Shown one piece after another: positions 1 through 6,314 of a stretch of 6,314 nt of DNA. Position 1 is the stretch's first letter. Each line of letters starts with the position of its first letter. The stretch is taken from positions 1 through 6,314 of the forward strand of contig CANRKN010000122.1 of the NCBI GenBank assembly GCA_947631215.1, written 5' to 3'. Below the pieces are notes generated by a model. It ran no database searches, had not been told where the DNA came from, and was given only the letters and a program-made list of their open reading frames with translations. The DNA is from an uncultured Oscillospiraceae bacterium. Its GTDB lineage: Bacteria > Bacillota_A > Clostridia > Oscillospirales > Oscillospiraceae. The position numbers and the translations under genes were made by a program.

Positions 1-11
1 ATCTTTTTCCC

Positions 12-17
12 TATAAT
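12..17 (+). promoter_or_regulatory. Possible -10 box (TATAAT) abutting the hairpin
   Basis: A perfect TATAAT lies one base before the hairpin at 19-72. Any matching -35 box would fall just outside the left edge, so a promoter cannot be confirmed. If real it would fire rightwards, antisense to the recombinase-like gene, the same orientation as the outward promoter of the switch at 5055-5346. Confidence 0.25.
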
Positions 18-18
18 A

Positions 19-72
19 ATGCTCCCTCCATGGATGCAGTGTCTTTTTCACTGTCTTCCATTGAGGGAGCAT
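19..72. repeat. Long imperfect inverted repeat (hairpin) downstream of the degenerate recombinase gene
   Basis: The outer ten bases ATGCTCCCTC (19-28) are exactly complementary to GAGGGAGCAT (63-72). Pairing continues inward through ATGGA and CAGTG with one mismatch, one A/T mismatch and a one-base bulge, leaving a loop of about 7 bases (TCTTTTT, 42-48). It lies 37 bp beyond the stop codon of the recombinase-like gene at 110-952. On the minus strand the hairpin is followed by ATTATTATAGGG, a poor T-tract, so as a terminator it would be weak. It could instead be a recombination site like the palindrome beside the second recombinase gene. The hairpin is seen directly; its role is open. Confidence 0.7.
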
Positions 73-109
73 ATCAGGTCCCGCCGGGCGGCTCGTCACT
101 ATCAGCGTC

Positions 110-952
110 TTATGCTTCCCACGCCACGGAGAGCTGTTCCTCCTCCGTCTGGCGCTCCAGGGCCTGCTCCACGAGCATGGCGATGTTGTCCTCGATGGCC
201 TTGCGCCCGGCCAGATACAGCTTCCGCAGGCAGCGGGGGCTGCCCTTCTCCACGGGCACCTTGGCCACGGCGCACAGCTCCCGGATGGAGCTTGTCACGG
301 AGGTGCGGTCCATGGGCGCTCTGTCCCTGGTCAGGAACAGGGGCCCCGACCTTATCCCATTGCGCCCGGCGTATGCCAGGAGCTCTCTGCACAGGCATCG
401 GGGCAGGCGGATGATCTTCCGGCTCTTCCCCCCGCCTATCACGGCCTGCCCGGCCTGGGCGGCCTCGACGGTGATTTTCGGCAGCTCCTGCACAGGAAGG
501 TCCGCGTTTGCGAACACCTTCACGAGAAGATAAACCCGCTCCCTCTTCAGCAGCTGCGCTGTCTGCAAAAGGTGGATATACTCGTTCCGGGTGAGCTCAG
601 GGGATACGGACGCCTCCGCGTCCAGCGTATCCCGGAGCTGGTATTCCAGATGGCCCATATAGGCCACATACGAATTGGCGGCGGAGATACGGATATTGGC
701 CGTCCGGGGGGCGCAGCCATCCGCGAGAAGGGCCTCGCGGTACTTCTCCAGCGTCCCGCGCCGGATCATACCGTCCCCGGGCAGGGCCTGGGCCAGGCGT
801 TCCAGCTCCCGCCGGTAGCGCTCCACCGTCTCCTGCGTCCTGCCGTTCAGGGCAAGCCAGGTCAGAAAGCCCTGGATGCTCTCCCCGGTCACGGGAACGC
901 CCTGCTCTTTCTTTATGAGCCTTGGGGCCTGTCTCAATCCTATCGTATCCAT
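110..952 (-). CDS. Degenerate tyrosine recombinase-like protein (catalytic residues lost)
   Basis: A 280-residue protein with the tyrosine recombinase layout: an N-terminal SAM-like core-binding domain (about 22-105) and a C-terminal catalytic-fold domain (about 115-280). It aligns along its length with the recombinase at 5352-6188, for example GPLFL..APMDR here against GPVFL..GPMDR there. The active site is broken. The first catalytic Arg aligns with Pro153, the HxxR histidine with Arg240, the later His with Glu266, and the nucleophilic Tyr with Ser275. Lys176 and Arg243 remain. Strand cleavage is therefore not expected, although DNA binding could persist. The frame is open and full length, so this is not a simple pseudogene. 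I chose the ATG at 950-952 because AGGCGGTGA lies just upstream and the length then matches the paralogue (278 aa). The frame extends to a TTG at 1057, but that extension is low-complexity and palindrome-derived. It could be a DNA-binding regulator, a partner in a heteromeric recombinase, or a decaying copy. Confidence 0.8.
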   Translation of the reverse strand: MDTIGLRQAPRLIKKEQGVPVTGESIQGFLTWLALNGRTQETVERYRRELERLAQALPGDGMIRRGTLEKYREALLADGCAPRTANIRISAANSYVAYMGHLEYQLRDTLDAEASVSPELTRNEYIHLLQTAQLLKRERVYLLVKVFANADLPVQELPKITVEAAQAGQAVIGGGKSRKIIRLPRCLCRELLAYAGRNGIRSGPLFLTRDRAPMDRTSVTSSIRELCAVAKVPVEKGSPRCLRKLYLAGRKAIEDNIAMLVEQALERQTEEEQLSVAWEA

Positions 953-956
953 GCTT

Positions 957-965
957 TCACCGCCT
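957..965 (-). promoter_or_regulatory. Ribosome binding site deciding the start at 952
   Basis: On the minus strand AGGCGGTGA matches the anti-Shine-Dalgarno complement AGGAGGTGA at 8 of 9 positions and ends 4 bases before the ATG at 952. This supports that start over the upstream TTG at 1057, which has no such site. I see no convincing promoter in the GC-rich DNA between here and the terminator at 1087. Confidence 0.65.
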
Positions 966-978
966 TTCGGTTTGGGGC

Positions 979-1013
979 CCCCACGCGAGCCCAGCGAAGC
1001 GGGTCGCGTGGGG
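979..1013. repeat. GC-rich hairpin upstream of the degenerate recombinase gene
   Basis: CCCCACGCGA (979-988) pairs exactly with TCGCGTGGGG (1004-1013). The inner CCC/GGG and GC/GC also pair around a GAA turn. It has no T-tract on either side. With the palindrome at 1040-1059 it resembles a dispersed REP-like intergenic element, which is inferred because only one copy is visible here. It would sit in the 5' leader of any transcript entering the recombinase-like gene. Confidence 0.65.
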
Positions 1014-1039
1014 AGAGGAGGAGCCGCGGGCCATTCGAG

Positions 1040-1059
1040 CTTTGCCGCTTGCGGCAAAG
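1040..1059. repeat. Perfect 20-bp palindrome
   Basis: CTTTGCCGC and GCGGCAAAG are exact complements around a TT centre, giving a 9-bp stem. It lies between the surface-protein terminator and the hairpin at 979-1013. No T-tract follows on either strand, so it is unlikely to be a terminator. Confidence 0.7.
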
Positions 1060-1086
1060 GGAGACCTGGCTCAGCGTGCTCCGACG

Positions 1087-1118
1087 AAAAAAGGGGGCAG
1101 GGGATATCCCCTGCCCCC
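1087..1118 (-). terminator. Intrinsic terminator of the surface-protein gene
   Basis: A 26-bp perfect palindrome (1093-1118; arms GGGGGCAGGGGA and TCCCCTGCCCCC around TA) is followed on the minus strand by six T's (1092-1087). It begins 37 bases after the stop codon of the surface-protein gene. This is a textbook Rho-independent terminator and should isolate the downstream recombinase-like gene from that transcript. Confidence 0.93.
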
Positions 1119-1155
1119 CGTTGGGTATTGCTATATGTTTTGCTTGGTGCTTATC

Positions 1156-4100
1156 TTACTTCGCCCAGGTGGTGCCGTTCCAGTTGCCCAGCTCGGTGGA
1201 GTAAGTGCACTTGCCGGAGGAACCGGACTTGGTGCTGAAGTAGCAGGTGCCGTACGCACCGCCGACCCACTGCCAGCCAGTCAGCATCTTGCCGATCTCG
1301 CCGTTCTTATTGGTGGGCTGCAGGAAGTACCAGCCGTAGCCACCGTGCAGGTCGTCCAGGTAGGCCATACCGGTGACCAGCTTGCCGTCAGCGCCCACAT
1401 AGTACCAGTTGCCGTCCCACTTGGAAGCGCCGTCAGCCTTGCCGACCCAGAAGCTCTTCTTCAGCTGGTTGTTCTGGTAGAAGTAGATGTCGCCGGTGGT
1501 CTCATCCTGCACCCAGCCGGTGCCGGAGGAAGGAGCAGCGGGGATCTCGGGCTCCTCGGGCTTCTCTTCCAGAGCGTTCAGAGCGTCGGCCAGAGCCTCA
1601 ACAGCGGCGTCGACCTCTTCCTGCGTGGCTTCCTCGTCCAGGAACACGGCCTGCGCGGCCTCAAGAGCCTCGGCCAGAGCGGCCACGGACTCAGCGGTGA
1701 ACTCATCGGGGTTATCCACAACGGCCTGCGCCAGGACGATGCCCACCATCAGAGCGCTCTTGTCGACCTCTTCGGGCTCGACCTCTTCCAGAGCGTTGAT
1801 GGCGTCGGTCAGAGCTTCGTCAGCGGCGTCGACCTCGTCCTGCGTGGCCTCTTCGTCGTCATACACAGCCTGCGCGGCCTCCAGGGCCTCCTGCATGGCG
1901 GCCCAGGACTCAGCGGTGTAATCCGCCTCATCCAGCATGCCGGCGAACTCGATGGAGAGCTCCAGCTCGGACTTGTCGACCTCTACGGGAGGCTCCTCGA
2001 CCTCGACCAGCTTCTCGACAGCGGCGGCCAGGGCCTCGACAGCGGCGTCGACCTCTTCCTGGGTGGCGTCCTCGTCGTCAGCCACAGCCTGCGCGGCCTC
2101 GATGGCGGCGGCGATGTCGGCCTCAGCCCAGGACTCCTCGGTGTAGTCCTCAGCGTTCAGAGCCTTGGCGGCGGCGATGGCAGCCTCAAGGGCGGTCTTG
2201 TCGACGGGCACGAGCTCCTCCAGCTTCGCCATGGCGTCGTCCAGGGTCTTCTTCGCGTTGTCAACCATGGTCTGGCTGGCGTTCTCATCGGCGGCCACGT
2301 TCTTCGCGGTCGCGAGAGCGGAGGCGATGTTCTCCTTGGCGGCGGTCCAGGACTCGGGGGTGTAGTCCTCTTCCTTCAGGGCCTCAGCGGCGGTGATGGA
2401 AGCCTCCAGGCCGGTCTTGTCGACGTCGTCAGGATTCACGAGGGCATCCACAGCGGCCTTAAGGTCGTTGTAGGCCTTGTTGACCTTGGACTGCAGGATG
2501 GGAGTGTTCGTGAGGACCTTAGTGGCAGCCTCATTGGCGTCCTGCATCTTGCCCCAGGAATCATAGGTGTAATCGTCTTCCTTCAGGCTGCGGATCTCGC
2601 GCTGCAGGTCGACCAGCGCCCTGGTATCGGCGGCCTTGACCTTCAGGTACGCGTAAACATGGGCTATCGCCTCCAGGTCGGTGAGGACCGTCTTGCGGTT
2701 CACACTGGTGTTGGCCAAGCTGGCATTGTTGATGGTGTTCCGGACCTTCGTGACGTCCTGGTTGATGGTCTTGATGACGTCGTCGACGCTGTCGAGATCG
2801 GTACGATCCGTGATCTTGCCATCGGTGAGTTTAGCGGGATCCAGCTCATAGTCACCGGCGACCAGCGCGGCGGCCTCGTCCAGGATCTTGTTGACAGTCT
2901 TGACGTCGCCCCAGGCGGACAGAGGCTTCACGGACAGAGCCACGGAGTCCTGCTGCACCTCATAGGTGAGGTCGGTCTTATGGGCGTCGTCAGTGTTCAC
3001 GTCCAAGGTGGCCTTCAGGCCGCTGACGGTGAACTTGCTCTCCTTGTCGGTGACGTAAGTGCTTATTGTACCGGAAATATTAGTGGTGGGGTTGCTGGTG
3101 GTAACACCGTTGTTGAGCTTGGTGTCGCCGCTCTTCACGTAGATGTTATGGACGTTATTGGTGTCGGCGAAAGCCTCGGTCAGCGTCACCTTCACGGTGG
3201 GCATGCTGCCGGCAAGATCAGTAAGGGTACCAGCATTAAGAGTCTTTATCTCGTCCAGGGAGTCACGAGTATCGCCGAGTTTGGTGCCCTCATTGTAGTT
3301 GGTGATCACAGCAGACTCGATCATGGGGCCGTAATAGGACTTGACGGGGAATTCGTAGGTCTCATCCTTGATCAGCAGCCAGCCACTGCCGTTGCTCTGC
3401 TCCTCCATCAGGCGGAAGGTCACCTTGTCGCCGGCCTTATAGCCGCTGGTCTTCTCATCACCCTTTGAGTCAAAGGGCGAAATACCGAAGGTGGCATACA
3501 GCCGGTTGGGGTCCTGGTCGTCGGTAGCCGCTTTCCATACGGGCTGCGAGCCAGTACTCTTATTAAACTGACGGATATGGTTGGTAGCATCAAAGGTCTT
3601 ATCAGTTTTTCTAATATTATTCAGGCCGAACCAATAACCGTCGTACTCGACGCCGATGCCGTAGATAACGCCGTCGCCCTGCACCGTGCCGAAACCAGCC
3701 ACGTTCGCAATGGACACCGTGATCGTGACCTTATTATCCGCCGTGGCTTCGATCTTCTCGATCTGAATGGTGCGCTTCACCGGAGTGGTGGCGTCGGTGA
3801 TGTCCTTGATGGCCTTCTGGACGTCATAGTACTTCACCTTGTCGGCCAAGCCGTTCAGGCCCTGGGTGTCGCTCAGCAGCTTCTTGGCATAGTCGACTTT
3901 GGTGTACAGAGCGGCGTCATAATTGGCGTACTCGCCCGAGTGGAGAGCGACACCATCTTTTGTCGCAGCGTAGTCAGTCTTGATCGCCTCGGCGGCCTTG
4001 ATGACGGCGGCCAGGGCGTTGGCCTCGGTCTCGCCGGCCTTGGCAGCGTCAGCCTCCAGCTTCGCGGCGGCCAGAACGGCCTCGGCGGCCTTGGAGAAGT

Positions 4101-5004
4101 CCTTGAAGGTGGCGCCGTCGGTCTCACTGAAGACTTCGATGGCGTCCTGGGCATCCTTCAGGGCCTTCAGGTAGTCGGCCTTGTAAGACAGGGTCCACTT
4201 GTCTTCGTTGAACTTGGTGGTGTCATCGACAGAGCCGATGCCGGCGGCATACGTAGCGCCACTGCCGCTGGGCTGATAAATAGACGTGCCGGCGTTATAG
4301 GTAGTAGTACCGGCGTTATAGCTGTTGCCGGCCTTCAGAGCGCCGAAGAGCGCATTGGCATTGGTCTTGTGGGACTCGCTGTCGGAAGTGCCAATCAGCT
4401 CATCGGTCAGCAGCTGGTAAGTGCCGTCGTCCTTGGGCAGGTACTTTTTCAGCTCTTCGGTAGCAGCCTCAACGGTCTTGGTATTGACGTTGATGTCCAC
4501 CGTCACGCCGTTGATGGCGTCCAGGTTCTTCTTGGCGACCGCGTAGGCGTCCAGGAAGGCCTTGGCGGGAGCATAGTCCTTGTCGCCGAGAGGCTTATTG
4601 TCATAGCTGGCCTTGACATAGAGCTCGCCGGCCTCGACCTTGGGCATGAGCTCGTCAGCCTTGGCGATAGCCTTCTCCAGCTTGTAGTGGGCCGTGCCGG
4701 TGACAACACCCAGCGTCACCAGCAGGGGCTCATCCTCAAGCTCCTCGGGCATAATGGAAGCCATCTCGGGCACGTCTTCCACGACGGGCTCCTCGACGGG
4801 CTCCTCCGCGGCAGGCTCGTCCACGACGGGCTCTTCCACGGGTTCCTCGGCCTCAGGGGCTGCGGGAGCCTCAGGGGCCACGGGTGCCTGCTCCTCGACT
4901 TCGGTCACAGCCTCTGCCGCGAATTCGTCAGCCGCGAGGGCCGGGACGCACAGAGACAACGTCATGACCAGCGCCAGAAGCAGGCTCAGCATGCGTTTCT
5001 TCAT
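1156..5004 (-). CDS. Large secreted surface protein with FIVAR repeats and C-terminal wall-binding repeats
   Basis: A 1282-residue exported protein. Residues 1-24 are a Sec signal peptide (KKR, a hydrophobic core, then ALA before A25). Residues 26-80 are acidic and rich in Pro, Glu and Val, with a duplicated EEPVEEPVV (53-61, 67-75). Residues about 85-405 are Ala- and Lys-rich and largely helical. Residues about 408-570 look beta-rich (TIQIEKIEATADNKVTITV, then GYWFGLNN). Five FIVAR-type helical repeats follow, starting near 792, 861, 934, 1009 and 1080; four begin VDK and most contain DYT..SW. Residues 1163-1282 are aromatic GW/YY repeats like the choline-binding or putative cell-wall-binding family. 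There is no LPXTG, so attachment is probably non-covalent. FIVAR domains occur in Gram-positive adhesins such as Ebh/Embp, so an adhesin or surface-coat role is likely but inferred. An AGGAGG lies 8 bases before the ATG. Expression is probably controlled by the invertible promoter at 5055-5346. Confidence 0.93.
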   Translation of the reverse strand: MKKRMLSLLLALVMTLSLCVPALAADEFAAEAVTEVEEQAPVAPEAPAAPEAEEPVEEPVVDEPAAEEPVEEPVVEDVPEMASIMPEELEDEPLLVTLGVVTGTAHYKLEKAIAKADELMPKVEAGELYVKASYDNKPLGDKDYAPAKAFLDAYAVAKKNLDAINGVTVDINVNTKTVEAATEELKKYLPKDDGTYQLLTDELIGTSDSESHKTNANALFGALKAGNSYNAGTTTYNAGTSIYQPSGSGATYAAGIGSVDDTTKFNEDKWTLSYKADYLKALKDAQDAIEVFSETDGATFKDFSKAAEAVLAAAKLEADAAKAGETEANALAAVIKAAEAIKTDYAATKDGVALHSGEYANYDAALYTKVDYAKKLLSDTQGLNGLADKVKYYDVQKAIKDITDATTPVKRTIQIEKIEATADNKVTITVSIANVAGFGTVQGDGVIYGIGVEYDGYWFGLNNIRKTDKTFDATNHIRQFNKSTGSQPVWKAATDDQDPNRLYATFGISPFDSKGDEKTSGYKAGDKVTFRLMEEQSNGSGWLLIKDETYEFPVKSYYGPMIESAVITNYNEGTKLGDTRDSLDEIKTLNAGTLTDLAGSMPTVKVTLTEAFADTNNVHNIYVKSGDTKLNNGVTTSNPTTNISGTISTYVTDKESKFTVSGLKATLDVNTDDAHKTDLTYEVQQDSVALSVKPLSAWGDVKTVNKILDEAAALVAGDYELDPAKLTDGKITDRTDLDSVDDVIKTINQDVTKVRNTINNASLANTSVNRKTVLTDLEAIAHVYAYLKVKAADTRALVDLQREIRSLKEDDYTYDSWGKMQDANEAATKVLTNTPILQSKVNKAYNDLKAAVDALVNPDDVDKTGLEASITAAEALKEEDYTPESWTAAKENIASALATAKNVAADENASQTMVDNAKKTLDDAMAKLEELVPVDKTALEAAIAAAKALNAEDYTEESWAEADIAAAIEAAQAVADDEDATQEEVDAAVEALAAAVEKLVEVEEPPVEVDKSELELSIEFAGMLDEADYTAESWAAMQEALEAAQAVYDDEEATQDEVDAADEALTDAINALEEVEPEEVDKSALMVGIVLAQAVVDNPDEFTAESVAALAEALEAAQAVFLDEEATQEEVDAAVEALADALNALEEKPEEPEIPAAPSSGTGWVQDETTGDIYFYQNNQLKKSFWVGKADGASKWDGNWYYVGADGKLVTGMAYLDDLHGGYGWYFLQPTNKNGEIGKMLTGWQWVGGAYGTCYFSTKSGSSGKCTYSTELGNWNGTTWAK
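1555..2631 (-). repeat. Five tandem FIVAR-type repeats within the surface protein
   Basis: Five diverged units of about 69-75 residues span residues 792-1150. Unit starts are near 792, 861, 934, 1009 and 1080. Shared landmarks are VDK at the start of units two to five, a (D/E)(Y/F)T..S motif about 20 residues in, and DEEATQ-EVDAA near the end of the later units. Units four and five are closest to each other, which suggests recent duplication and possible copy-number change. The first unit is the most diverged. Confidence 0.85.
4780..4848 (-). repeat. 42-bp-period repeat encoding duplicated EEPVEEPVV
   Basis: Residues 53-61 and 67-75 are the same nine-residue sequence, 14 residues apart, in the acidic low-complexity segment after the signal peptide. 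This in-frame repeat is probably a flexible spacer and could gain or lose units without shifting frame. Confidence 0.7.
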
Positions 5005-5012
5005 TTTGTTGT

Positions 5013-5018
5013 CCTCCT
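5013..5018 (-). promoter_or_regulatory. Strong Shine-Dalgarno of the surface-protein gene
   Basis: A perfect AGGAGG on the minus strand sits 8 bases upstream of the ATG at 5004. It lies outside the invertible segment, so it stays in place in both orientations. This fits a switch that acts on transcription only. Confidence 0.9.
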
Positions 5019-5054
5019 ACATAAAATACTTGGTTATTTGCGAGCCCTCCATCG

Positions 5055-5076
5055 CACCACGGACTACACAGTCTGT
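5055..5076 (+). repeat. Left inverted repeat of the switch
   Basis: It reads CACCACGGACT followed by ACACAGTCTGT and is the reverse complement of 5325-5346 except at one position (G in place of A in the first half). It is itself an imperfect dyad: ACCACGGA, a central CTACACAG, then TCTGTTGC. It lies 50 bp from the start codon of the surface-protein gene. No T-tract follows it on either strand. Confidence 0.92.
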
Positions 5077-5095
5077 TGCCGCTCGCCCCCCAAAG

Positions 5096-5134
5096 CCTCC
5101 CCTATCCAGGGGAGGGGGACCGCACGAAGTGCGG
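5096..5134. repeat. Two adjacent hairpins inside the invertible segment
   Basis: CCTCCCCT (5096-5103) pairs with AGGGGAGG (5108-5115) around ATCC. Immediately after, CCGCAC (5120-5125) pairs with GTGCGG (5129-5134) around GAA, followed by GGAGGGG. The pattern resembles small dispersed palindromic elements common between genes in gut Clostridia. That family assignment is from memory and only one copy is visible here. Confidence 0.65.
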
Positions 5135-5175
5135 TGGAGGGGTTTTAAACGACGATCCCAGGGCACGGCAAAGCT

Positions 5176-5205
5176 GCCTGCGGCCTTTTTCCCAAGGCCA
5201 CAGGC
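5176..5205. repeat. Hairpin inside the invertible segment
   Basis: GCCTG-C-GGCCTT pairs with AAGGCC-A-CAGGC around TTTCCC, with a single mismatch in an 11-bp stem. It lies upstream of the promoter in either orientation and is not followed by a clean T-tract, so it is unlikely to be a terminator. It may be part of the same palindromic insertion as 5096-5134 or a binding site. Confidence 0.6.
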
Positions 5206-5221
5206 TGGTTCGTTATGTAAA

Positions 5222-5243
5222 AAAATCAAGTTTTTTTGATTTT
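5222..5243. repeat. AT-rich inverted repeat just upstream of the -35 box
   Basis: AAAATCAA (5222-5229) is exactly complementary to TTGATTTT (5236-5243). With the flanking A and T runs it forms an AT-rich block directly upstream of the -35 box at 5248. It could act as an UP-like element for RNA polymerase or as a regulator operator; nothing here decides between these. Confidence 0.5.
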
Positions 5244-5247
5244 CCTC

Positions 5248-5276
5248 TTGCTTTTTTCGCCCCGGGAGCTTATAAT
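5248..5276 (+). promoter_or_regulatory. Sigma-A-type promoter carried by the invertible segment
   Basis: The -35 box is TTGCTT (5248-5253), matching consensus at the first three bases, with a 17-bp spacer and a perfect TATAAT (5271-5276). An AT-rich block lies upstream. The start site is expected near 5283. As sequenced it fires rightwards into the terminator at 5322-5353. After inversion it would fire leftwards into the surface-protein gene. A small GGAAG-TTT-CTTCC hairpin (5301-5313) lies in the leader. Confidence 0.8.
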
Positions 5277-5321
5277 CGTCAACGTAAAGTTGGGCTCAAA
5301 GGAAGTTTCTTCCGCGTTCGT

Positions 5322-5353
5322 ACCACAGACTGTGTAGTCTGTGGTGTTTTTTT
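5322..5353 (+). terminator. Intrinsic terminator formed by the right repeat plus seven T's
   Basis: ACCACAGACT (5322-5331) pairs perfectly with AGTCTGTGGT (5336-5345) around GTGT. One G and then T7 (5347-5353) follow on the plus strand. It should end the outward transcript about 70 bases after its start, shielding the recombinase gene from antisense reading. The T-tract lies outside the invertible segment and overlaps the reversed stop codon of that gene (5352-5354). The minus strand has no T-tract, so it is not a terminator for the recombinase transcript. Confidence 0.8.
5325..5346 (-). repeat. Right inverted repeat of the switch
   Basis: The minus-strand copy of the 22-bp repeat. With three extra bases on the inner side it forms a perfect 24-bp dyad (5322-5345): ACCACAGA, central CTGTGTAG, TCTGTGGT. 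The 8-bp centre is asymmetric and lies in opposite orientation to that of the left repeat, as required for inversion rather than excision. Confidence 0.92.
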
Positions 5354-6188
5354 ATAGCAGAAGCGGCAGCCGCTCCATCTGGGCCCTTTGTTCCGTGAAG
5401 CTGCGGATGGTGTAGACCCGCGTTGTCTCGATGCTGCTGTGCCCCAGGATGTCCGCGAGACGCAAAAGATCCTTATATACCTTATAATATGTCCGCGCGA
5501 ACAGGTGCCGCAGGTTGTGGGGGAACACCTTCCCCGGCGCCACCCCCGCCCGGACAGCCAGCCGCTTCATGGCCTTCCAGATGTTGCTCCTGTCCATGGG
5601 CCCGCCTTTTTTGCTCAAAAATACCGGCCCCGAGGAGATATTCATCTTTTTGCAGTATTTTAGGAGTGTTTTGCATAATTTTCCGGGCAAAACGATGGTC
5701 CGGCGCTTGCCTTTGCATATTATTTCAGCCTGTCCGGCCCGCAGGCTTTCCGCTGTGATGGCGGAAACTTCGCTGACGCGGACCCCTGTGGCCGCCAGCG
5801 TCTGCAATAAAAGCGCCAGCCGCTCGTCCCCCTCACTCTCGGCCTTATGCACGAGCTTTTCATACTCCCAGCGCTTGAGTTCCCGGCTCGAATCCGCGAA
5901 ATTCCGGCGCTGTACGCGAAGAAACCGCAGCCGCCATTCATGGTATCCGCAGAAATCCAAAAAATTATTCACCGCCGTCAGGACCCCGTTCACGGTCCCG
6001 GCGGCCCTGCCGTCTTGCAGGAGCCGCTCCTTATAGCCCACCAGCTCGGCCTTGCCGCGGACCTCGCCCCCGGCGAAAGTGAGCAGGCCGTCCAGTATCC
6101 TGCTGTACTTGGCGATGGTAGCGGGGCTGTATTCCCGCTCGGCCATCTCCTGCCGGAACATGTCCAGCGCTTCCCAGTCCAGTTTCAT
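5352..6188 (-). CDS. Tyrosine recombinase (probable invertase of the adjacent promoter switch)
   Basis: A 278-residue site-specific recombinase with an N-terminal SAM-like core-binding domain (about 1-90) and a C-terminal catalytic domain (about 103-278). The catalytic set is complete: Arg137 in ATGVRVSE, Lys161 in the KGKRR beta-hairpin, His224 and Arg227 in HNLRH, His250 in LGHSS, and nucleophile Tyr259 in TTRVYT. It should cut and rejoin DNA through a 3'-phosphotyrosine Holliday-junction mechanism, like XerC/D and the phase-variation invertases. Its length is typical of a small stand-alone recombinase without an arm-binding domain, unlike many phage integrases. The start at 6188 follows AAGGAGGG with 7-base spacing. 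Its 3' end is 5 bp from the right repeat of the switch, which points to that element as substrate. It reads toward the switch, so read-through could enter the surface-protein gene. A role only at distant sites cannot be excluded. Confidence 0.93.
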   Translation of the reverse strand: MKLDWEALDMFRQEMAEREYSPATIAKYSRILDGLLTFAGGEVRGKAELVGYKERLLQDGRAAGTVNGVLTAVNNFLDFCGYHEWRLRFLRVQRRNFADSSRELKRWEYEKLVHKAESEGDERLALLLQTLAATGVRVSEVSAITAESLRAGQAEIICKGKRRTIVLPGKLCKTLLKYCKKMNISSGPVFLSKKGGPMDRSNIWKAMKRLAVRAGVAPGKVFPHNLRHLFARTYYKVYKDLLRLADILGHSSIETTRVYTIRSFTEQRAQMERLPLLL

Positions 6189-6195
6189 TCGTATT

Positions 6196-6203
6196 CCCTC
6201 CTT
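6196..6203 (-). promoter_or_regulatory. Ribosome binding site of the tyrosine recombinase
   Basis: AAGGAGGG on the minus strand lies 7 bases upstream of the ATG at 6188, a strong site that fixes the start. Confidence 0.85.
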
Positions 6204-6234
6204 TTTTCCATATTGTCCACAAACCCCGGATACA

Positions 6235-6264
6235 ATACAAATAAGTCCAATGGTATTAAGTCAA
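6235..6264 (-). promoter_or_regulatory. Weak candidate promoter for the recombinase gene
   Basis: TTGACT (6264-6259, 5 of 6 to the -35 consensus) is followed after 18 bases by TTGTAT (6240-6235, 3 of 6 to the -10 consensus) on the minus strand. The surrounding 6204-6264 stretch is the AT-rich part of the intergenic region, as expected for a promoter, but the -10 box is poor. Confidence 0.3.
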
Positions 6265-6310
6265 GAGGGTGAATCACGGAAACAACAGAAGGAAACGCCA
6301 TAGGAGAGCT

Positions 6311-6314
6311 ATGA
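6311..6314 (+). CDS. Possible start of a divergent plus-strand gene cut by the window edge
   Basis: An ATG at 6311-6313 is preceded by TAGGAG (6301-6306), a plausible Shine-Dalgarno with a short 4-base spacing. It would be divergent from the recombinase gene. Only one codon is visible, so product and reality cannot be judged. Confidence 0.3.

Follow-up and report, generated by a model that had tools for sequence, protein, structure and literature searches.

A Putative Phase Switch of Oscillospiraceae Combining an Invertible Promoter, an Adjacent Tyrosine Recombinase and a Degenerate Recombinase Paralog

Introduction

Accounts of DNA-inversion switches in gut bacteria usually pair a recombinase with the promoter that it flips. 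This report concerns a stretch of 6,314 nucleotides (hereafter the window; assembly GCA_947631215.1, contig CANRKN010000122.1, positions 1 to 6,314 of the forward strand) from an uncultured Oscillospiraceae bacterium, probably of gut origin, in which a large surface protein appears, from comparison of sequences, to be switched on and off by the flipping of a promoter segment located beside its own recombinase gene (A). A second, recombinase-like gene with nearly all catalytic residues lost (B) lies beyond the surface gene. If the switch indeed induces an inactive recombinase, its state can feed back on its own reversal; moreover, the same module precedes giant surface proteins and capsule-type operons, and could shape what a commensal displays to its host and to phage.

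The nearest described counterparts are the invertons of group 139, one example of which comes from Intestinimonas butyriciproducens, a member of the Oscillospiraceae. Invertons of gut Clostridia located beside a tyrosine recombinase have been published, with orientation changes measured in culture, and group 139 adjoins a tyrosine recombinase group, invertase group 35 (PMC11892184, excerpts). The window shares with group 139 a short segment (~205 and ~227 bp in two of the published examples), inverted repeats and an adjacent tyrosine-type recombinase; it differs by the dead recombinase of the switched operon, none being described in the excerpts of that source (PMC11892184). By its sequence, the window is a Clostridia-type inverton with an adjacent tyrosine recombinase, i.e., an element of a known kind, as the original prediction, made from the letters of the window, had recognized.

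The Mpi recombinase of Bacteroides fragilis is a single global enzyme of the serine type that acts on invertible promoters for surface polysaccharides, unlike the present system with its one tyrosine recombinase per locus. In Clostridioides difficile, RecV acts on more than one locus, and transcript termination takes part in some of the switches. In RecV/cwpV and other C. difficile switches, as apparently in the window, a tyrosine recombinase flips a segment controlling a cell-wall protein or operon (PMC3080850, PMC5386303, PMC7446863, as described in the accessible parts of these papers). The present loci differ from the RecV system in carrying one recombinase each and in having a pseudo-recombinase behind the switched gene. 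FimE of Escherichia coli is tied to the orientation of its switch and is catalytically active, unlike B, which is without catalytic residues. FimB and FimE are, like A and B, two recombinase homologs at one invertible promoter (PMC11868660, available portion). A literature search by title and start of abstract found no paper on a dead recombinase in an invertible-promoter operon; most subscription journals lay outside its scope, and this is no proof of absence.

An Invertible Promoter Segment in the OFF Orientation

On the minus strand of the window, A (6188-5352) is followed, in the order of transcription, by the invertible segment, the surface gene (5004-1156), a hairpin (1119-1092) and B (952-110). 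The inverted repeat reported in the original prediction (21 of 22 positions, 5055-5076 and 5325-5346, with 248 nt between) holds up well, its arms being 95% complementary and its score of 19 lying far above those of 228 dinucleotide shuffles of stretches downstream of A (maximum 13; 99th percentile 11). The 248-bp segment (5077-5324) is in the OFF orientation in the window: its promoter, TTGCTT-17-TATAAT (5248-5276, plus strand; -35 at 5248-5253, -10 at 5271-5276), points away from the surface gene. A consensus promoter scan of the window listed no site, the -35 hexamer TTGCTT matching 3 of 6 bases. A weighted scan scored this promoter at 11.3 and the best gene-ward site at 7.0. The same element recurs in homologous segments, in either orientation. 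Promoter scores of at least 11 were obtained for 60 of 73 non-identical segments and, after mononucleotide shuffling, for 4 of 73; where no clear repeat delimited a segment, a fixed slice was used. The best promoter is directed towards the switched gene in 27 of the 73 and towards A in 46, and both states are found within each of the three module classes described below.

The closest relatives of the window are Oscillospiraceae metagenome-assembled genomes (MAGs) named Lapin, presumably from rabbits. A search of related genomes for the inverted allele had been advised, and it was fruitful: among the 16 segments aligned to the window over at least 60 bp (loci bear L numbers), five are inverted (L001, L061, L149, L154, and L162) and 11 have the same orientation, three of the latter (L135, L165, and L166) being identical copies in one genome. 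The segment of L001 matches that of the window at 85% over 235 bp in inverted orientation, with its promoter towards the surface gene (ON), which supports the prediction of an invertible promoter caught OFF in the window; the segment of L002 matches at 86% over 243 bp in the same orientation. L001 and L003 have common upstream neighbour genes, as judged by reading, yet their orientations are opposite. The most telling cases are inverted pairs within single genomes, namely L149/L150 (97% over 176 bp) and L068/L069, which are 100% identical throughout the 139 bp compared. On these alignments, the segment is one that inverts between relatives, with both orientations also present in near-identical copies of single genomes, and flipping presumably takes place within one population.

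Another reading takes the repeats for a bidirectional terminator or a structural element and nothing more, the differences among relatives being old, fixed rearrangements, with no flipping at present. Every assembly does show a single orientation. However, single genomes contain copies of 97-100% identity in opposite orientations, on which ground a static terminator alone was rejected, and both orientations occur in all three classes. Furthermore, orientation ratios are reported to change in Clostridia inverton group 139 (PMC11892184, excerpts), which we infer to be of the same kind. A static element is accordingly very improbable in our judgment.

The contigs of L136, L143, and L146 stop ~20, 296, and 8 bp past A, respectively, as if assembly broke at an invertible segment; repeats could equally cause these ends.

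Recombinase A and the Putative Recombination Sites

The complete tyrosine recombinase gene announced 5 bp past the right arm is intact (A, 5352-6188, minus strand, 278 residues; Pfam Phage_integrase, 3.1e-25). Its product carries the full R-K-H-R-H-Y catalytic set, and all six residues are kept in 40 of 41 A sequences. The earlier note had overlooked that the right arm sits within a 24-bp palindrome, followed by seven T. The gene-side recombination site occupies 5056-5079 (ACCACGGAC-TACACA-GTCTGTTGC; outer arm 5056-5064, core 5065-5070, inner arm 5071-5079) and the recombinase-side site 5322-5345 (ACCACAGAC-TGTGTA-GTCTGTGGT), the core of the latter being the reverse complement of the former; this 9-6-9 (arm-core-arm) division is a reading of the palindrome and of the points at which the L001 and window sequences exchange. 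Both arms are palindromic, with an imperfect gene-side copy, and the cores are opposite. Between L001 and the window, the inner half-sites travel with the segment and the outer half-sites remain in place. We take these sites to resemble the dif-type site of Xer recombinases.

The repeat was sought in 76 of the 78 A loci, two with less than 330 bp downstream being omitted. In 56 of the 76 modules, the window included, the best inverted repeat after A scores at least 12, and it starts no further than ~60 bp past A (only the first 110 bp were scanned). In addition, A and the sites co-vary across the small set of loci compared: GACT sites go with similar N-terminal parts of A in L001 and L002, and GAAT sites with a diverged N-terminal part in L003. 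Between L001 and L003, the A proteins differ most towards the N terminus, where the three leading 30-column blocks (upstream open-frame extensions being part of the first) agree at 25-60%, versus 80-100% further on. This adjacency and this co-variation make the case for A as the putative recombinase of the sites of the window, and A would flip the segment by acting at both of them. Another recombinase of the genome could instead flip the segment in trans, the adjacent A being incidental, as the many A relatives per genome and the likeness of sites at different loci would allow; the strong repeat close behind A in most modules and the co-variation of A with its sites make this improbable.

The Recombinase-Side Site as a Predicted Terminator

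The palindrome of the A-side site, together with the seven T, constitutes a predicted intrinsic terminator for OFF transcripts (5321-5353, plus strand), with a 12-pair stem. In the OFF direction, its folding energy is -16.5 kcal/mol (z -4.8), and none of 200 shuffles was as stable. A run of at least five A within the 14 bases before the A-side site, which amounts to the U-run after the hairpin of the OFF transcript, is found in 14 of 16 surface-class loci, and a T-run of at least five after the gene-side site in 0 of 56 modules. As a terminator scan of the window found one candidate against a shuffle mean of 1.4, i.e., a count not above shuffles, the case for a terminator is built on the stability of the stem and its recurrence and not on the scan. 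The hairpin may halt the OFF transcript ahead of an antisense run into A. The leader that follows the promoter (5277-5320 in the window, GTAAAGTTGGGCTC...) recurs in most surface-class loci.

B, a Degenerate Tyrosine Recombinase Paralog

The second recombinase-like gene, B (110-952, minus strand, 280 residues), had escaped the original prediction. Its product has no Pfam match at E≤1e-3, and its core-binding and catalytic domains show the fold of tyrosine recombinases. Among 143 B homologs, none has the Tyr at the aligned position, 137 retain at most one of the six catalytic residues, and 131 keep R II. A C-terminal motif distinguishes the two proteins (136 of 143 B, 0 of 41 A), as does a loose LGH-like motif near the end (8 of 143 B versus 41 of 41 A). 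These counts refer to sequences of 240-400 residues, the 143 B homologs comprising 100 of the 119 listed proteins other than that of the window itself (555 were found in all) and 43 open reading frames (ORFs) of the loci, and the 41 A being locus ORFs; one protein comparison used 44 proteins picked by hand from 120. The 555 relatives are those at E≤1e-3, the weaker of which may be A-type.

The ratios of nonsynonymous to synonymous substitution rates (dN/dS) range from 0.07 to 0.46 in 15 of 21 pairs of B and from 0.20 to 0.42 in 14 of 15 pairs of A; the other pairs, six for B and one for A, were saturated and omitted. On this evidence, B is under purifying selection despite its catalytic loss, and a pseudogene was rejected in view of dN/dS and of the conserved open frames. 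The loss of catalytic residues might suggest a functionless, decaying relic of a recombinase duplication. Such a relic is scarcely credible given the 555 relatives (weaker ones maybe A-type), a C-terminal motif present in nearly all B and in no A, dN/dS well below 1 and the position of B behind A in 36 of 48 loci. Distances between A proteins and between B proteins of the same genomes are correlated (r 0.84, 33 pairs; 31 of 2000 permutations as high), fused B proteins being trimmed to their last 290 residues for this comparison. At L073, L075, L076, L078, and L089, the B frames measure 447-537 residues (L089 also 326) versus the usual 280, and a distinct, short B-like ORF of 187-189 residues comes after them; the long frames look like fused B units.

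B-type proteins were sought in three samples of genomes. A profile match above 200 bits reaching position 278 or beyond was obtained for 6 of the 295 genomes sampled from the order and for 1 of 391 from the class, the latter being the centre itself; weaker matches in both samples stop around position 248-262 and resemble A-type proteins. In the family sample, 92 of 400 genomes match at E≤1e-25, and at least 28 of them, among the matches listed, count as B-type on the grounds of score and of an alignment extending to the C terminus, a lower bound for which at most six candidates per genome were scored. Carriage of B by plasmids or phages was considered and rejected: tblastn returned five plasmid records and one phage record, all below 60% identity, and all six alignments end at residue 246-262 like A-type matches, none reaching the C terminus of B. 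Among viral contigs, two pattern matches were obtained, none of which was confirmed.

Genomic Setting of B and Classes of Modules

Beyond what the original prediction described, further Oscillospiraceae MAGs and relatives contain the module, which also precedes other operons and often includes B. Fifty regions were fetched around B matches (L001-L003 again included), 48 of which contain B by BLAST; as these regions were picked by B, the shares given here are not genome-wide rates. In 36 of the 48 loci, A lies upstream of B on the same strand. Twelve are without A, six of them showing at most 3.1 kb upstream, most at contig edges. In a sample of the genus picked by A (L133-L166), B is present in 12 of 34 modules; the others have none in view, some with little downstream sequence.

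Three arrangements were found, the downstream genes being read for part of the loci. In the first, A, the segment, a surface gene and B follow one another (the window and 17 loci); in the second, B comes directly after the segment, with capsule-type genes after B in the six loci read; in the third, A and the segment are followed by other genes, without B. The loci L065, L066, L068-L070, and L072 have B first behind the segment and then capsule- or exopolysaccharide-like genes (sugar nucleotide enzymes, glycosyltransferases, ABC export), these names being given by reading of the sequences. Recombination sites also fall into classes. In the 56 modules with a strong repeat, CAGA/CAAA sites accompany B in 31 cases and lack it in three, CATAA sites lack B in 19 cases and accompany it in two, and a single other site is with B; the two CATAA entries with B (L066 and L067) are misfiled by pattern, their arms reading CAGAAT. 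The CATAAT-type class (L004-L007, L133, L134, L145, and L155-L161), with no B in view, has mostly TTGACA promoters, and its first gene varies, some loci having a helicase-like ORF with HPTGTGKS and others a very long presumed surface protein.

Between the surface gene and B of the window lies a GC-rich hairpin with a T-run (1092-1119, minus strand), with equivalents in relatives, which may be an attenuator or a leaky terminator. A GC-rich hairpin followed by T is found at this place in 18 of the 19 gene-then-B loci (L080, counted, is the sole exception), and its stem varies on both sides among loci, as judged by eye. The start of B often lies within ~30 nt of the hairpin, which leaves no room for a promoter there, so that B is probably expressed by read-through. 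Both this hairpin and that of the A-side site may act as terminators.

At three loci (L140, L144, and L163), A accompanies a surface gene, the A-side site is degenerate and the promoter faces the gene; these loci are apparently frozen ON. There is no B on that strand in 8 kb at L140 and L144; 1.8 kb is in view at L163.

Possible Role of B in the Switch

We propose that A would act on two inverted dif-like sites and flip the 248-bp segment. In the OFF state, as in the window, the promoter would face A, and its transcript would meet the palindromic site and T-run terminator, shielding A from antisense transcription. In the ON state, as in L001, the promoter would read the surface gene and then B by read-through of the conserved hairpin; because B lies behind the invertible promoter, it would be made mainly in this state. 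B, without DNA-cutting residues, could then join or compete with A at the sites and alter the rate of ON-to-OFF switching. A self-contained phase switch driven by A is in our view very likely. The timing of B and its role as an ON-state modulator of A are proposed tentatively, as what may plausibly be the case; synteny with A, the co-variation of A and B and the lack of B at two frozen-looking loci (L140 and L144) speak in favour of a modulator. It is also possible, though somewhat less likely than not, that one lineage-specific class of such switches, present in the Oscillospiraceae and near relatives, includes its own dead recombinase among the products of the switched operon. This subunit would enter the recombinase assembly and render the flip rate state-dependent, a form of pseudoenzyme memory for DNA inversion. 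The long C-terminal helix of B (model residues 239-279) could replace the helix exchanged between subunits. The idea comes from XerA, which packs its last helix in cis, in contrast to the trans packing of other recombinases (PMC3646895, accessible part).

Loss of activity from this fold has a precedent in MrpR of phage SPbeta, a phage repressor with a tyrosine-recombinase fold and no recombinase activity, in which several catalytic residues are replaced and K and Y are kept (PMC10516654, available portion). B resembles MrpR by its fold and its lost catalytic residues, a likeness of fold only, and differs from it by lacking Y, both His and usually K, by its different C terminus and by its location within phase-switch modules (PMC10516654). 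B might then be, in place of a partner of A, a recombinase-derived transcription factor acting on switch promoters as a repressor or an activator; the promoters concerned could be those of other loci, and the number of surface coats made at any one time would thereby be kept low. We regard this as unlikely, since B is far less basic than A (mean charges of the N and C parts +1.7 and +4.1 for B, versus +6.8 and +16.2 for A), its distances track those of the A of the same locus, and it is absent from the two apparently frozen-ON loci.

Several observations weigh against an A-driven switch modulated by B. On the side of the segment, 20 of the 76 A modules have a repeat score below 12, including L068 (8) and L069 (7), one repeat arm of L069 overlapping the end of A, and the margin between the best promoters of the two strands is less than 2 in 8 of 73 segments. 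Outside the surface class, few modules have the A-run before the A-side site (2 of 18 B-first and 9 of 22 no-B). The two Lapin MAGs have 12 and 13 matches to A, B-type included, and other recombinases could act in trans. As for B, six loci with more than 4 kb upstream have no A (L081, L091, L092, L096, L103, and L106; L081 has a repeat of score 11 within the 500 bp before B), at odds with a strict A-B pair, and these B genes are possible stand-alone regulators. CATAAT-type switches have no B in view, nor do three CAGA-type modules, two of them with at least 6 kb in view; from its absence in the CATAAT-type modules, B would be tied to one site class and not required for inversion in general. 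Dependence of B on the ON state is weakened in that B may be driven by a promoter within the surface gene or, together with that gene, by read-through from the promoter of A. In the window itself, the distance from the hairpin to B is longer (~140 nt) and the T-run is of six, and expression of B may be very low. The low positive charge of B favours protein contact over DNA binding only weakly, and it weakens direct DNA binding. Finally, the argument from frozen loci concerns two loci.

The Surface Protein and Other Features of the Window

The gene expected to encode a 1282-residue protein behind a strong ribosome binding site (1156-5004, minus strand) was confirmed, with AGGAGG at 5018-5013 on the minus strand. 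It had been described as a FIVAR and wall-repeat protein. The FIVAR part stands (80.6 bits versus a Pfam cut-off of 29.2), and the wall repeats are weak: choline-binding repeat models match the C terminus at E 0.056-0.65, the best at 14.0 bits, below the Pfam cut-off of 20.5. The labels "surface" and "wall" are thus presumptive, being drawn from a signal-like N terminus judged by eye, the FIVAR domains and the weak choline-binding-like repeats. The window has no match in Rfam. Inside the invertible segment, a GC-rich inverted-repeat element (~5094-5143; CCTCCCC...GGGGAGG, CCGCACGAAGTGCGG) is present in L001 and L002 as well and absent from L003.
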